Positions 11,864 through 17,249 of a DNA stretch of 64,000 bases are shown here, piece by piece; the stretch's first letter is position 1; each line of letters begins with the position of its first letter. Origin of the DNA: Streptomyces mobaraensis. GTDB taxonomy: Bacteria > Actinomycetota > Actinomycetes > Streptomycetales > Streptomycetaceae. The notes below the pieces were generated by a model. It did no database searches and was not told the origin of the DNA. It worked only from the letters and a program-made list of their open reading frames with translations. The stretch spans positions 2,604,001 to 2,668,000 of the forward strand of contig NZ_CP083590.1 in the NCBI RefSeq assembly GCF_020099395.1, given 5' to 3'. The translations under genes were made by a program, and so were the position numbers.

Positions 11864-12619
11864 TCATTCCGAGACACCCGGTCCGATGTTCGAGATGAAA
11901 TCGTCCCAGTACCCGGGCATGGACTCCCAGGGGTCCAGTCCGTCACGGTCGGTGCGGTCGGTCATGTAGACCGTGCCCGCGCCCTGCCGGCGGGTGATGA
12001 GCAGCGCTTCCTCCAGGTGGGCGCGGGGGACGCTGTGGACGAGGTGGCAGAAGCGGCCGGGCGGGTGGTCGGCCGTCCAGTCGGCGGGGCGGGACCAGCG
12101 GTAGCGGTTCCAGGGGCCGGTGAAGGTCACCAACTGGTCGGCGAGCGCCGCGTATCCGGCGACCGGGTGGCTGCCGTGCAGCAGCACGAGGTACGCCCGG
12201 TCGTGGAGGGTGCGCAGGGCGCCGGTGACGCGGCGGACGTCGGCCAGCGCGCCGGTGTCGGCCGGGCAGCGGGCCACCGCGAAACCGTCCACCTTGTACC
12301 AGTTGAGGAACCGCTGCGCGTCGGAGAGGAGTTCACCGAACGGCCGGGCCCCGAAGGCGGCGTCGAGGTGGCCGAGGACGCGGACGCCGGCGTCGCGCAG
12401 CGGCGCCGCGGCGGCCGTGCAGTACGGGTCCGGGCGGCTGCCGGGGCCGCCGGAGGCGCTGCCGAGCACCGTCCAGTCCAGCGGGAGGTCCGCGCGGCAG
12501 AGCCGCCCCCACTCCACGGGCGCGACGAGCGGGTGGGCGAAGCCGGGGACGCCGAGCCGCAGCGGCGCCTTGGCCGCGGGGAGCGGGCGGCGGTTGCCCG
12601 ACGACGTCAGATACGACAC
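11864..12619 (-). CDS. spherulation-specific family 4 (GH135-like) protein
   Basis: A 251-residue protein of the spherulin-4 family, whose fungal member Sph3 (GH135) cleaves alpha-1,4-linked galactosamine/GalNAc polymers. The family pattern is visible as VRVLGHLDAAFG followed by RFLNWYKVDGFAV. The acidic pair that usually follows VDG is displaced (ARCPAD), so catalysis is uncertain. No signal peptide is visible with the GTG start at 12619, which is unusual for a polysaccharide hydrolase. The start overlaps the epimerase stop by 13 bp, so the two are translationally coupled. It is the last gene of the PelF-like operon. Confidence 0.75.
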   Translation of the reverse strand: MSYLTSSGNRRPLPAAKAPLRLGVPGFAHPLVAPVEWGRLCRADLPLDWTVLGSASGGPGSRPDPYCTAAAAPLRDAGVRVLGHLDAAFGARPFGELLSDAQRFLNWYKVDGFAVARCPADTGALADVRRVTGALRTLHDRAYLVLLHGSHPVAGYAALADQLVTFTGPWNRYRWSRPADWTADHPPGRFCHLVHSVPRAHLEEALLITRRQGAGTVYMTDRTDRDGLDPWESMPGYWDDFISNIGPGVSE

Positions 12620-13521
12620 GCGGCCTCCATCCAGATGTCGGCCAGCGACTCCTCCAGGCCGATCCGGGGCCGCCAGCCGAGCCGGTCGCGGGCGGTGCGC
12701 ACGTCGGCCTGCTGCCAGGCGCCGCAGCCGTCCGGGTACGGGTAGACGGGCGTGGCGCCCAGGTGCGGATCGTCGAGCTCGTGCAGGGCGCCCCCGAACC
12801 CGGCCACGCGGGCGAGCAGCGAGGCGGCCTCCCGCAGCCGGGTGGCCCGGCCGGTGCCGATGTTGACGGCGCCCTGGGCGGCGGAGAGCGACGCGGCGTG
12901 CACGGCCCGCGCGATGTCGCGGACGTCCACGAAGTCGCGCTGGACGCCGAGCCCGGTGAGCTTGAGCTCGTTGTCGCCGTTCTGCATCGCCCGCCGCATG
13001 GCCTCCGCGAGGCGGCCCAGCGGCGAACCGGCCGGGGTGCCCGGGCCGACCGGCGAGAAGACGCGCAGCACGATCGCGTCCAGGCCGGAGCCCAGGACGA
13101 GTTCGGTGGCGGCGAGCTTGCTGACGCCGTACGGGCCGCCGGGGCGCGGCACCGCGTCCTCGGCCGTGGACGAGCCGGGCTGCGAGGGCCCGTACTCCGA
13201 GGAACAGCCCACCTGCACGAGGCGCGCCCCGCACCCGCTGCGGCGCAGCGACTCGCAGACCGTGGCGACGGCGACGGTGTTGTGCCGGGTCAGGTCGCGC
13301 GCGCCGCCGCGGGTGGCGCCCGCGCAGTTGATGACGACGCCGGGGTGGACGGCGTTGAGGAACCGGGTGAGCGCGCCGGGGCTGCCGGTGGCCAGGTCGA
13401 AGCGGACGTCGGCGTCGTCGCCCCGGCCGAGGGCGGTGAGCTGGACGGCGGGGTCGGCGAGCAGGCGGTCGGCGACGAAGCGGCCGAGGTAGCCGTTGGC
13501 ACCGAGCAACAGGACCCTCAT
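12607..13521 (-). CDS. NAD-dependent epimerase/dehydratase (extended SDR)
   Basis: A 304-residue extended short-chain dehydrogenase acting on nucleotide sugars. It has the Rossmann loop GANGYLG at residues 7-13, active-site Tyr/Lys in PYGVSK, and the sugar-binding region QRDFVDVRDIARAV. Substrate cannot be read from sequence; by context a UDP-hexose or UDP-HexNAc is likely, perhaps C4 epimerisation to supply the adjacent glycosyltransferase. Ribosome site GGAGGAGAACG precedes the ATG, which overlaps the small ORF's stop by 4 bp (ATGA). Confidence 0.85.
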   Translation of the reverse strand: MRVLLLGANGYLGRFVADRLLADPAVQLTALGRGDDADVRFDLATGSPGALTRFLNAVHPGVVINCAGATRGGARDLTRHNTVAVATVCESLRRSGCGARLVQVGCSSEYGPSQPGSSTAEDAVPRPGGPYGVSKLAATELVLGSGLDAIVLRVFSPVGPGTPAGSPLGRLAEAMRRAMQNGDNELKLTGLGVQRDFVDVRDIARAVHAASLSAAQGAVNIGTGRATRLREAASLLARVAGFGGALHELDDPHLGATPVYPYPDGCGAWQQADVRTARDRLGWRPRIGLEESLADIWMEAACRI

Positions 13522-13673
13522 CGTTCTCCTCCTCGCTCTCGTCCGCCACGGCCGGCGGCGCGGTCAGCGGTGATGCCGGTCTCGCTGCCGGCTGCGCTGC
13601 CGGTCTCGATGCCGATGCCGGTTTCGGCCGGACTGCCGGGGCCGGGGCCGAGGCCGGTCGGATCAACGGTCAT
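13518..13673 (-). CDS. small ORF bridging the membrane protein and epimerase genes
   Basis: A 51-residue ORF (MTVDPTGLGPGPGSP ...) rich in Gly, Thr and Glu with repeated ETGI/ETGS units and an Arg-rich end. Its ATG lies inside the last codons of the upstream gene (11-bp overlap), and its TGA overlaps the epimerase ATG as ATGA. This is the spacing of a translationally coupled gene. No family is recognised. It may be a real small protein or a translated spacer that carries ribosomes to the epimerase. Confidence 0.4.
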   Translation of the reverse strand: MTVDPTGLGPGPGSPAETGIGIETGSAAGSETGITADRAAGRGGRERGGER

Positions 13674-15714
13674 GGTGGGTGCTCCTCTGACGGGGGTGTG
13701 CGGAGGGCCCGGCCCCGCCGGGACGGAGGGAGGGGCCAGGGAGGCCGGGCGAGGGATCGGGGCGGCCGTATGACGGACAGGGGTGGCCGGCCGATGGGCC
13801 GGGATGGCCGGACGACGGGCCGGGGCGGCTGGGTGGTGCGCCGGGACAGCCGGGCGGCGTGCCGGGGGCGTCGAACCGGCTGCGGTGGTCGAACGACGGG
13901 CCGGGGTGGCCGGACGACGCGTCAAGGTGACCAGCCGACGGACCGGGGGTGTCGGACGAGCCGGGGTGGCCAGCCGACGCGTCAAGGTGACCAGCCGACG
14001 GACTGGGGGTGTCGGACGAGCCGGGGTGGCGGGACGACGCGTCCGCACAGCCCGGCATCGGATCGAAGGCGTCGCAGGCGCTGCGGAAGCCCGCGGACGG
14101 GTCGGAGGCGTCGGACGGGCCACGCAGACCGGCCGACAGGCCGGGCTGGTTGGCCGACAGGCCAGGGTGGCCAGCCCGCGGACCAGGGTGACCGGCCGCC
14201 GGACCGAGGTGGTTCGACGACGCGAAAGCCGCCCCCGCCGCGTCCGGCCCCCCGAGCCCGTGAACGGCCGCGTGCGGCAGCACGGCGAAAGCCCGGACGG
14301 TCAGGACGACGGCCGCCCCGGCGCAGGCGACGAGGCCCGGCGCGGACGGCCCGAGGGTGCCGGGCAGCCTGGTGACCGGCCAGCCCAGGGCGGCGCAACC
14401 GGGCAGCCGCGCGGCGAGCAGCAGCACCGGCGGGAGCGCCTCGGCGGCGCAGGCCGCGAGGACGGCCGCGGCGGCCGGCCGGGCCAGGCCGTGGGCGGCG
14501 CAGAGCCGGTCGAGGAAGAGCAGGAAACCGAGGGCGAGGGCGGCGAGCGCGGGGACGGAGGTGGGGTGCCCGAGCCCGGGCAGGGCGGAACGGGCCGTCC
14601 ACACGGACAGGAAGAGGGCGCCGAGGACGACGGTGAGCACCGTCGGCAGGGCGCACCGGGCCCGTACGCGGAACGCGGTCAGCGAGCGGCTGTCGGCCAG
14701 CCGCCGCCGGGCGTACCCGGCGAAGGCGTGCGCGCACCACGCGGCGGGCGCCACGGCGCAGGCGAGCCCGAGGGCGGTGGGCGCCGCCGCGGTGGCGAGG
14801 GCCCGGGGGCCGAGCCGCGCGTGGCCGTGCAGCAGCGCGGACAGCAGCCGGTCGCCGACGCACCCGTAGGCGAGCAGCCAGGCCCAGGCCAGCGCACCGG
14901 CCACGGTCCGGCGGCTCCGGCCGGGGCGGGCAGGGCACAGGCCGTAGGCATCGGGGTCGTACGAGGCGCAGGAGGCTCGCGGGACGCGGGAGCCGGCCGC
15001 GGCCTCGGGAGCTTCGGGGGCTCCGGTGGGCCCGGAGACCCTGAACCCCCTTGAGCTTCCGGAGACTTCGGAGACCCCCTGAAACCCAGGGACCCCCGGG
15101 ACTCCTGAGGCTCCGATGGCGTGGGCATCACGCGAAGCACCGGAGCGTCCGGCCGCGCGGGAGCCGAGGTTCACTCCCCCGCCGAGCGCCGGCGCCCCCT
15201 CCGTGCCGGAGGCATCCGGCGTCCCGTACCGCCCCCAGTCCCGCGTCCGGAACTGCGGCCACTCGACCTCGTCGGGCCTCCGCCTGCTGTCCCCGGCCGC
15301 CCTGACGGCCCCGGCCCTCCGCACTCCGGCCGGCGCGCCCGCACCCGCCTTCGTACCGTCCTCCGTACTGTCCCCGGTTCCCCCGCCGACGCGCGCGTAC
15401 AGCTCCTCCGCGAGCGAGAAGACGTCCCGGTGCCCGCAGACCGCCGCCGCGCGGTCGGTGACGCCCCGCGCCTCCAGCCGCGCGGCGAGTTCCCAGGGGT
15501 CGACGGCGTCGGCGCACACCGCGTGGTGCCGGAGCAGGAGGGCGCGGACCGGGTCGGGGGCCGACCCGGGGCGCCCCGGAGCGGCGGGTATGCCGACGGC
15601 CGGCGCAGACCCCGCACCCGGGTGCGCGGGACCCGCCTGCGCGGGGATCGCGGGCCCGCCGAATACGGGGGCGGCGGCGACGGGATCGGCGGCCGGCGCC
15701 GCGGCGCGCGTCAC
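13663..15714 (-). CDS. multi-pass membrane protein of the PelF-like operon with repetitive tail
   Basis: A 683-residue protein of unknown family. Residues 1-265 are mostly Ala/Gly/Pro-rich with one structured patch (RALLLRHHAVCADAVDPWEL). Residues about 270-490 hold six or seven hydrophobic segments such as ALAWAWLLAYG, LALGFLLFLDRLCAAHGLA and AVLAACAAEALPPVLLLAA. The remaining about 190 residues are imperfect repeats of GHPGPSAG/SSDTPGPSAGHLDAS type. GTG 15714 overlaps the glycosyltransferase stop (GTGA). By position it could be the membrane partner of the glycosyltransferase, as PelG is for PelF, but I see no clear PelG motif. Confidence 0.6.
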   Translation of the reverse strand: MTRAAAPAADPVAAAPVFGGPAIPAQAGPAHPGAGSAPAVGIPAAPGRPGSAPDPVRALLLRHHAVCADAVDPWELAARLEARGVTDRAAAVCGHRDVFSLAEELYARVGGGTGDSTEDGTKAGAGAPAGVRRAGAVRAAGDSRRRPDEVEWPQFRTRDWGRYGTPDASGTEGAPALGGGVNLGSRAAGRSGASRDAHAIGASGVPGVPGFQGVSEVSGSSRGFRVSGPTGAPEAPEAAAGSRVPRASCASYDPDAYGLCPARPGRSRRTVAGALAWAWLLAYGCVGDRLLSALLHGHARLGPRALATAAAPTALGLACAVAPAAWCAHAFAGYARRRLADSRSLTAFRVRARCALPTVLTVVLGALFLSVWTARSALPGLGHPTSVPALAALALGFLLFLDRLCAAHGLARPAAAAVLAACAAEALPPVLLLAARLPGCAALGWPVTRLPGTLGPSAPGLVACAGAAVVLTVRAFAVLPHAAVHGLGGPDAAGAAFASSNHLGPAAGHPGPRAGHPGLSANQPGLSAGLRGPSDASDPSAGFRSACDAFDPMPGCADASSRHPGSSDTPSPSAGHLDASAGHPGSSDTPGPSAGHLDASSGHPGPSFDHRSRFDAPGTPPGCPGAPPSRPGPSSGHPGPSAGHPCPSYGRPDPSPGLPGPSLRPGGAGPSAHPRQRSTHHDR
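13921..14040 (-). repeat. two 60-bp tandem repeats in the tail of the membrane-protein gene
   Basis: Bases 13921-13980 and 13981-14040 are nearly identical 60-mers (both begin GTCAAGGTGACCAGCCGACG). They encode duplicated 20-residue units (DTPSPSAGHLDASAGHPGSS type) within a longer degenerate repeat region, about 13770-14210. Confidence 0.85.
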
Positions 15715-17249
15715 CGGCGGCCCGCCCAGGACGGCGAGGCGGGACGGGCGGACCAGGCGAGGCCGCGCGGGCGCCCGGCCGCCGCGGCGAGGGACGCCGC
15801 GTCGCGCGGGGCGGCGACGTCCTGCCGCGCCGGGGCGGCCGACAGCAGCTCCAGATAGATGCCGCCGAAGGTGGCGATGTTCTGTTCCACGGTGAAGAGT
15901 TCCAGGGCGCGGGCCCGGGCGGCGGCGCCGAGCCGGTCCGCGCGGGCGGGGTCGTCGAGCAGCGTGAGGCAGCCCTCGGCGAGGGCGTGCGGGTCGTGCG
16001 CGGGCACCACCAGGCCGGTGCCGCCCACGACTTCGCGGGCCGTCGCCGTGTCGGGGACGACGGTGGCGCGGCCGCAGAACATGGCCTCGGCCAGTGGGAC
16101 GGGGAAGCCGTCGCCGGAGGAGGCGACGACGATGACGTCCGCGTCGGCGTAGTCCTCGGGACCGCACACGGCGACCCGGGTGGCGCCCTCGGGCAGCGGC
16201 CCGCCCTCCGGGACGCCGGTGACGCGCAACCGGACGTCCGGCCGGGTCAGGGTGAGGACGGTGGTCGCCTCCCAGAGCCAGGGTTCGGGAGGGCCCCCGG
16301 CGAGGAGCAGCACCGGCCCCTCCCCGCGCCGCTCGGGCCGCGCCTCGCCGACGGCCTCGTACAGGCTCGCGTCCACCCCCGGCGGGACGGTGCGCAGCCG
16401 GCCGCGGTCGGCGCCGCAGCGCTCCTGCCAGCGGCGCACCTGCGCGTCGCCGGGGGTGATCAGCGAGGCGCGGGCGTACGTCTCGCCGGCCAGCAGCCGG
16501 TGGAAGGCGGACAGCAGGGTGCGGACGGGCACGGAGAGGCCCGTCGGCTCGGTGAGGTAGTGCTCGCGCAGCCGGACGCCGTACTCGGTGACCAGCAGGG
16601 GGGTGCCGAAGAAGCGCCGGGCGAGCAGCCCGGGCAGGGCGGCCGGGCCGGCGGACGCGGCGTGGCACAGGTCGACGCCGGCCAGGCCGAGGTCGCCGTC
16701 CGGGGCGCCGTACCAGTCGAGGGAGAGCGGGCGCAGGGCCCGTTCGAGGAGGCCGGCGACGACGAGGAGGTCGGCGACGCGGACGCCCTGCGCGCCGGGG
16801 TGCGCGTCGGGGGCGCGGCAGGCCGTCTCCAGGGCGCGGAGGGCGAGTTCGGAGCGGAGCGCGGCGACGAGGCCGCCCTCGTCGCGGGCGAGGCCGGCGA
16901 GCCCGTAGAGGCCCTCGGCGAAACGGTACGCCTGGTCGCCCGGTGTGGTGAGGGCGGCGGCCAGGTCGCCGAAGTGGGCGGTGAACCGCTGCCGTTCGCG
17001 CCGGCCGTACGCGCCGTGGGCGCGCGCCGCCCCGCCGGGCGCGGGTCCGCCCCACAGCGGGGCGGCCCTGATCCGGCGGACGTTGCCGGGCAACCCGTAC
17101 CAACCACCGTCCTCCTGGCGGGCGCTGCGGCTCAGCGCGTACACCTCGAACTCGTGCCGGGGCAGTCCGCGGACGAGCCGGTCGCACCACTCCCCGCCCT
17201 CACCAGCGGCGTACGGGTACCCACCCTCGGTCAGCAGTCCCACGCGCAC
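15711..17249 (-). CDS. PelF-like family 4 glycosyltransferase (DUF3492)
   Basis: A 512-residue GT-B glycosyltransferase. The N-terminus LLTEGGYPYAAGEGGEWCDR followed by LVRGLP closely follows the DUF3492 signature of PelF, the polymerase of the cationic GalNAc-rich Pel exopolysaccharide. The middle has ARASLITPGDAQVRRWQERC and RTVPPGVD, and the GT4 nucleotide-sugar site is represented by GDGFPVPLAEAMFCGRATVV. It probably polymerises a UDP-hexosamine in the cytoplasm. It is the first gene of a five-gene coupled operon. No c-di-GMP receptor (PelD), PelE or deacetylase gene is nearby, so the system is minimal or uses distant partners. Confidence 0.82.
   Translation of the reverse strand: MRVGLLTEGGYPYAAGEGGEWCDRLVRGLPRHEFEVYALSRSARQEDGGWYGLPGNVRRIRAAPLWGGPAPGGAARAHGAYGRRERQRFTAHFGDLAAALTTPGDQAYRFAEGLYGLAGLARDEGGLVAALRSELALRALETACRAPDAHPGAQGVRVADLLVVAGLLERALRPLSLDWYGAPDGDLGLAGVDLCHAASAGPAALPGLLARRFFGTPLLVTEYGVRLREHYLTEPTGLSVPVRTLLSAFHRLLAGETYARASLITPGDAQVRRWQERCGADRGRLRTVPPGVDASLYEAVGEARPERRGEGPVLLLAGGPPEPWLWEATTVLTLTRPDVRLRVTGVPEGGPLPEGATRVAVCGPEDYADADVIVVASSGDGFPVPLAEAMFCGRATVVPDTATAREVVGGTGLVVPAHDPHALAEGCLTLLDDPARADRLGAAARARALELFTVEQNIATFGGIYLELLSAAPARQDVAAPRDAASLAAAAGRPRGLAWSARPASPSWAGRR

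Follow-up and report, generated by a model that had tools for sequence, protein, structure and literature searches.

Does a conserved Streptomyces operon that carries the marks of a polysaccharide pathway still make a polysaccharide? The question is raised by five minus-strand open reading frames (ORFs) in a 64,000-nucleotide stretch of the Streptomyces mobaraensis genome (NZ_CP083590.1, positions 2,604,001 to 2,668,000), here called the window. They encode a DUF3492 glycosyltransferase (GT), a membrane protein (MP), a short leader ORF, a short-chain dehydrogenase/reductase (SDR) designated EP, and a Spherulin4/GH135-like protein (SPH). An earlier, sequence-only reading had proposed a working minimal Pel-like pathway to a galactosaminan or a related glycan. 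The evidence gathered here favours another answer: this is probably an exopolysaccharide operon that has been repurposed around EP and is now mostly non-catalytic. The paralogy, gene losses, residue changes and conservation that carry this answer are read directly from sequence.

A paralogue of an intact cluster

In sequence comparison the window locus is a paralogue of an intact Agd3/PelF/Sph3-type cluster. The intact form is present elsewhere in this genome as eight genes (G000:C1, ~6952930-6963870; locus L003 from 4929, and L242), encoding a CE18-like deacetylase, PelF, a MOP-fold exporter, a 4,6-dehydratase, a nucleotidyltransferase, a reductase, and GH135 and GH114 proteins. Loci of the window form are termed w-type and those of the intact form m-type; of 20 m-type loci, 14 have seven genes and six have four (deacetylase, GT, MP and SPH). 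The CE18 assignment rests on DD and HxxxH motifs, and searches of the PDB with the deacetylase-like protein, by single sequence and by profile, gave no match. The presence of a LegB-like dehydratase and a nucleotidyltransferase suggests a 6-deoxy-aminosugar in the polymer of the intact cluster. A second GH114 gene (182 bits; G000:C1:216824-217468) lies apart from both clusters.

The intact cluster is already known in kind. In the available part of PMC7229062, bacterial agd3-type operons are counterparts of the Aspergillus galactosaminogalactan cluster and, like the window locus, encode a cytosolic GT, a multi-spanning membrane protein and, in some Actinobacteria, Spherulin-4. The intact paralogue also has their CE18-like gene and GH114, whereas the window locus has neither deacetylase nor GH114, and its GH135-like protein is without Glu222. 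With the Gram-positive pelDEA(DA)FG operons, as far as they appear in the available text of PMC7112168 (where PelD carries degenerate epimerase-like domains), the window locus shares a PelF-family GT, but no PelD, PelE, PelG or PelA family matched among the locus proteins scanned. The PelD_GGDEF profile gave no match here, nor in any control genome, and no PelA-type deacetylase was seen among the six window proteins scanned.

The order GT, EP, SPH, moeZ is kept in all 20 w-type loci fetched from Streptomyces (~14 kb each), in 15 of which MP was matched by single-sequence search. Among 80 named loci, 65 were long enough to judge (15 were too short), and 61 of these hold GT-MP-EP-SPH-moeZ complete; three are without SPH and one is without a detected MP. 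Because the order is kept across both samples, the gene set is grouped beyond chance, and the conservation across Streptomyces that the sequence-only reading had wished to see surveyed is found. This conserved operon, with its DUF3492 and Spherulin4 homologies, is what speaks for a working minimal pathway. However, a deacetylase, a nucleotidyltransferase and a dehydratase all went undetected in the 20 fetched loci, the CE18-like gene of the paralogue included, and this speaks against it.

The hydrolase-like protein

SPH scores 66.3 bits against Spherulin4 (cut-off 30.2), and a w-type SPH profile matches Aspergillus Sph3 (GH135; 5C5G, 5D6T) with an E-value of 7e-11 over ~190 residues, confirming the proposed relationship to spherulin-4 and Sph3. 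A single-sequence search of the PDB gave no match and a structure model (mean pLDDT 46.4) was left unused; the relationship to Sph3 rests on sequence profiles. In the available text of PMC12054363, Glu222 of Sph3 is named and the nucleophile is printed as Asp196; the residues aligned here are Asp166 and Glu222, and the nucleophile is counted as Asp166.

Both sites are replaced in the window SPH. In m-type rows, Asp and Glu are each retained in 39/39, whereas the Glu222 equivalent is retained in 0/60 non-basal w-type rows. These motif tallies drop ORFs below 150 bits and rows L001, L002, L004 and L092; the 60 include six genomes twice (G013, G220, G229, G235, G244 and G257), and the basal loci L121, L122 and L131 are excluded from them, as from the 31 non-basal GT rows below. 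The Glu is likewise absent from all of the best-listed 120 of 1231 database homologues, and from all 75 readable of the 77 SPH proteins of the named loci. Of 39 m-invariant SPH columns, 4 are lost in the w-type, the catalytic Glu among them.

By eye, SPH has no obvious signal peptide, and GH135-family proteins of both types (m-type L003 included) are alike in this. Fungal Sph3, by contrast, is membrane-anchored (PMC12054363, available text). Without a signal peptide, even the intact m-type GH135 may act in the cytosol. Some w-type Spherulin4 proteins (P0145, P0153, P0157 and P0171) are labelled 'phage tail protein' in public records.

The glycosyltransferase

GT scores 97.2 bits against DUF3492 (cut-off 23.3), with weaker C-terminal GT4 matches. 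Its designation as a PelF-type polymerase stands in part: the DUF3492 signature is present, but the PelF equivalog NF038011 gives 58.6 bits, below its cut-off of 100, whereas the intact paralogue reaches 174.2. The HGGVS loop, which we take from GT4 enzymes to be a donor contact, has its GG in 67 of 68 m-type rows (with one gap; repeated genomes and the GT of basal L121 are included), whereas 31/31 non-basal w-type rows have Glu or Asp in place of its second Gly. The window GT has further lost the donor-site Arg/Lys and the first Glu of its EX7E motif.

The window's clade comprises 15 named loci whose EP is at least 94% identical to that of the window, and 11 of them hold a GT (L162-L167, L169-L172 and L174). 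A motif of the GR-x2-P-x-KD type is found in none of these 11, and the first Glu is Asp in all of them, three with a further change. The GT of the window's own clade is probably non-catalytic, judging by these residues. Outside it, the Arg/Lys pattern is also absent in L185, L201 and L210, where EGFP is retained; across the GTs of the named loci, EX7E is intact in 55/67, Asp-first in eight and unmatched in four.

These observations bear on a rather unlikely alternative, in which a glycan or glycoconjugate is still built with another donor or acceptor, the SDR is an active enzyme and SPH is a binding or transfer protein. It draws on EX7E and Arg/Lys in most w-type GTs, and on new w-specific invariant SPH residues such as Trp183 and Ser184 (numbering of the column comparison) shortly past the lost Glu. 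It fits poorly with the 11 altered GTs of the window's clade, and with three loci that retain EP while their GT is vestigial or was not found.

The membrane protein

MP and the 51-residue ORF matched no family in Pfam or NCBIfam. MP has a short soluble N-terminal domain, seven hydrophobic segments at the threshold used and a low-complexity, repetitive tail, which in the window (13733-14212) is coded by degenerate 21- and 60-bp tandem repeats; homologues of other species look mostly shorter. In hhalign, part of MP aligns with the C-terminal region of the m-type exporter (probability 99.5, E 8e-23, 162 columns), and the N-terminal soluble domain is common to both (31/63 identical). At the same threshold the m-type protein has 11 hydrophobic segments; in 21 loci of each type, counts were 5-8 (w) against 9-12 (m) at a stricter threshold and 6-9 against 8-12 at a looser one, figures that depend on the threshold and, in other species, mostly cover the last 426 residues. 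MP matches an exporter only in part, a further point against a working minimal pathway.

The sequence-only reading recognised no PelG counterpart. This needs correcting, as a protein that shares 97% identity with the membrane protein of the paralogue has a predicted structure of the MOP/MATE fold. The MOP relationship is visible by fold alone, in this model and for the paralogue's protein; in a whole-genome search, PelG (PF16933) reached 27.1 bits at best, below the cut-off of 29 and far from both loci.

The cysteine SDR and its leader

EP is a PF01370 SDR and a paralogue of the m-type SDR. Extended SDRs normally have a catalytic Ser or Thr. In EP this position is Cys in 60/60 non-basal w-type rows and in 80/80 named loci, whereas it is Ser in 26/26 m-type rows. 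The nearest solved relative by sequence is the GDP-6-deoxy-D-lyxo-4-hexulose reductase 2PK3 (79.5 bits), with which EP shares the Rossmann GxxGxxG and YxxxK motifs but not the Ser. That EP supplies UDP-GalNAc, as had been suggested, is not borne out: its nearest solved relative is a GDP-4-keto-6-deoxyhexose reductase, and its m-type counterpart sits with the LegB-like 4,6-dehydratase. Retention of the Rossmann motif, Tyr and Lys would suit the altered-donor alternative above.

All 143 distinct w-type EP genes start in ATGA, where the TGA of the upstream frame overlaps the EP start. In counts made without a shuffled control, that frame holds an ATG-started ORF in 136 of the 143, of 12-19 codons in 110 of the 136, and a simple pattern finds a Shine-Dalgarno-like motif for 130 of the 136. 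The 51-residue ORF of the window is a lengthened form of this leader. The second EP codon is AGG or AGA in 145/145, although these two account for 2.9% of the 4332 Arg codons elsewhere in the gene; in 24 Ser-type SDRs, basal w-type loci included, it is CGC in 16 and AGG or AGA in five, all these counts being from related, not independent, sequences. That AGG and AGA interchange while the A stays speaks for selection on the leader/EP overlap; an alternative explanation is that structure is avoided at the start.

Basal lineages and stepwise loss

In quick SPH and EP trees, G163 (genus g15), G158 (g10) and G171 (g9) are the successive first branches of the w-type clade. SH-aLRT values in the SPH and EP trees, respectively, are 99 and 100 for w-type against m-type, 85 and 90 above L121, and 99 and 99 above L122. 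The trees are quick searches with SH-aLRT only, cover 53/102 SPH and 44/89 EP rows, and leave the motif columns in; on them, two changes are needed for the SPH Glu and one for EP Ser/Cys.

The first branch, G163, has a complete cluster upstream of moeZ (deacetylase-like, GT, MP, dehydratase, nucleotidyltransferase, EP and SPH, with ~3.6 kb to moeZ), a CE18-like gene included, and the GT, EP and SPH motifs checked are intact. In G158, the ~15 kb of contig upstream of EP yielded neither a GT nor an MP; the Glu position of SPH is occupied by Asp, and EP retains Ser with Tyr replaced by Phe. In G171, the interval from GT to moeZ is without dehydratase and nucleotidyltransferase genes and the GT loop is altered, while Glu and Ser are retained.

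Distribution and constraint

DUF3492 is found in 139/150 Streptomyces genomes. EP is matched (E 1e-40 or better) in 146, 142 at w-type level (>440 bits) and four at m-type level only; of the eight genomes without a w-level EP, seven are assemblies of at least 630 contigs, the exception being G010 (two contigs, 93% complete). An intact-type GT (best E <1e-40) occurs in 63, a figure that omits G009, whose partial match of 124.5 bits is of that type (L134); 60 genomes have both forms and 82 the w-type alone. An obligate partnership of the w-type with the intact cluster was considered and rejected, as 82 of the 142 genomes with w-type EP have no intact-type GT at this bar. In a family sample the SPH profile matched 100/121, with w-level scores (at least 280 bits) in Streptomyces and seven other genera, the remaining genera scoring lower, m-like or not at all. 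In a class sample it matched 32/296, with none above 176 bits outside the genus. Among named species, S. griseus and S. venezuelae have w-type proteins or loci.

In 32 w-type loci, EP is the most constrained of the four operon genes and nearly matches moeZ. Median identity and NG86 omega (the omegas, in GC-rich DNA, serving for comparison between genes only) are 0.876 and 0.167 for EP, 0.929 and 0.150 for moeZ, 0.657 and 0.392 for GT, 0.661 and 0.403 for SPH, and 0.444 and 0.673 for MP (the 32 include L124, near-identical to the window). In 15 m-type loci GT is the tighter (0.795 and 0.251) and the SDR the looser (0.670 and 0.416). By these measures, constraint has shifted from GT in the intact form to the SDR in the w-type.

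A second, unlikely alternative is slow decay, in which EP alone is functional while GT, MP and SPH are eroding passengers. Of the 11 DUF3492-negative genomes, six were fetched, each with EP, SPH and moeZ; GT vestiges occur in L138 and L139, L140 has no GT in the stretch examined, and in L141-L143 the stretch ends before GT. No SPH was detected in L144 or L147. In L139 (G127), the vestigial N-terminal GT part shares an open frame with MP, resembling a fusion. Such losses, the high omega of MP and the loss of 47/197 GT columns invariant in the intact form are what decay would produce; against it stand the lower omegas of GT and SPH, the 61 complete sets among judgeable named loci, and the w-specific invariant columns newly present in both GT and SPH.

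Features of the window locus

All five ORFs and their overlaps lie exactly where the sequence-only reading placed them: GTGA at 15711-15714 (GT/MP), 11 bp (MP/51-residue ORF), ATGA at 13518-13521 (51-residue ORF/EP) and 13 bp (EP/SPH). Downstream lies moeZ (NF005902, 755.4 bits), and upstream a gene for an ABC transporter in which two ATPase domains are recognisable by eye.

Table 1. Genes and altered sites of the w-type locus (window coordinates).
Feature	Position	Strand	Description
GT	15711..17249	minus	DUF3492/GT4 protein, 512 aa
GT, GGVS loop	~17199-17201	minus	replaced; Glu17
GT, donor-site Arg/Lys	~16295	minus	absent near residue 319
GT, EX7E first Glu	~16110-16112	minus	Asp380
MP	13663..15714	minus	membrane protein, 683 aa
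MP, exporter-like stretch	14257..14835	minus	homologous to C-terminal part of paralogue's MOP-fold exporter
Leader ORF	13518..13673	minus	51 aa; stops in ATGA opening EP
EP	12607..13521	minus	Rmd/RmlD-like SDR, 304 aa
EP, catalytic Ser	~13204-13206	minus	Cys106
SPH	11864..12619	minus	Spherulin4/GH135-like, 251 aa
SPH, site of Sph3 Asp166	~12272-12274	minus	Ala116
SPH, site of Sph3 Glu222	~12119-12121	minus	Thr167

Interpretation

The link to PelF and Sph3 drawn by the sequence-only reading, and with it descent from a galactosaminan-type pathway, is supported. A working minimal pathway is not, because the hydrolase Glu is lost in all non-basal rows, three genes are undetected, MP corresponds to the exporter only in part, and the window GT lacks its donor-site Arg/Lys and scores below the PelF cut-off. 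Although most w-type GTs beyond the window's clade retain EX7E and Arg/Lys, such a pathway is very improbable. By contrast, since the genes are kept despite the lost catalytic residue and the missing parts, a new job in place of slime-making is probable. Altered chemistry and slow decay are the rivals to be taken seriously; the estimates for these and for repurposing overlap, and their sum may differ from one.

In the repurposed operon, synthesis and export of the galactosamine polymer would have been lost. The Cys-SDR would remain able to bind NAD(P) and, probably, a nucleotide sugar; whether as an altered enzyme or as a regulator gated by its ligand, it would be the functional centre of the operon. 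Nucleotide-sugar, membrane and glycan binding would fall to GT, MP and SPH, partners that some lineages have discarded. More tentatively, a dead hydrolase, a cut-down exporter and a disabled polymerase might be complexed around the invariant Cys-SDR, itself translated via the coupled leader peptide, in a largely non-catalytic module through which most Streptomyces would sense nucleotide-sugar or redox state on behalf of their cell envelope.

Several observations weigh against this repurposing. The SPH nucleophile Asp is retained in 39/60 non-basal rows, and EP Tyr and Lys are retained in non-basal w-type rows, so altered catalysis is possible; in basal L122 the EP Tyr is Phe. EP is split over two frames in 2/20 fetched loci, L043 (G140) and L051 (G082), through sequencing error or real decay. 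Most w-type GTs outside the window's clade could still be active, since they retain Arg/Lys and EX7E, and the GT of L124, the window's closest relative, is without Arg/Lys but retains the first Glu. Foldseek supports the exporter fold weakly (best E-value 0.0064), the leader-ORF counts have no shuffled control, and the loss of GT, MP or SPH in several lineages also fits slow decay.

No description of a w-type locus was found in open-licence full texts, subscription papers being outside this scope. The presumed S. coelicolor tags SCO5179-5182 had no match in this literature, and SCO5178 had zero mentions among the matches listed for SCO5178 or moeZ. Actinoplanes exopolysaccharide clusters (PMC13390465) and viral spherulation proteins (PMC8269230) were set aside as having, in the available parts of those papers, no bearing on the window locus.

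This is a locus of most Streptomyces for which the open-licence literature searched describes no function. Annotation by homology would label it a slime-making operon; its residues say otherwise. Because intact, transitional and disarmed forms coexist, it offers a stepwise example of how several enzymes within a single pathway can shed catalytic residues without loss of the genes, and its core SDR provides, in non-pathogenic laboratory strains, a clear and testable target.

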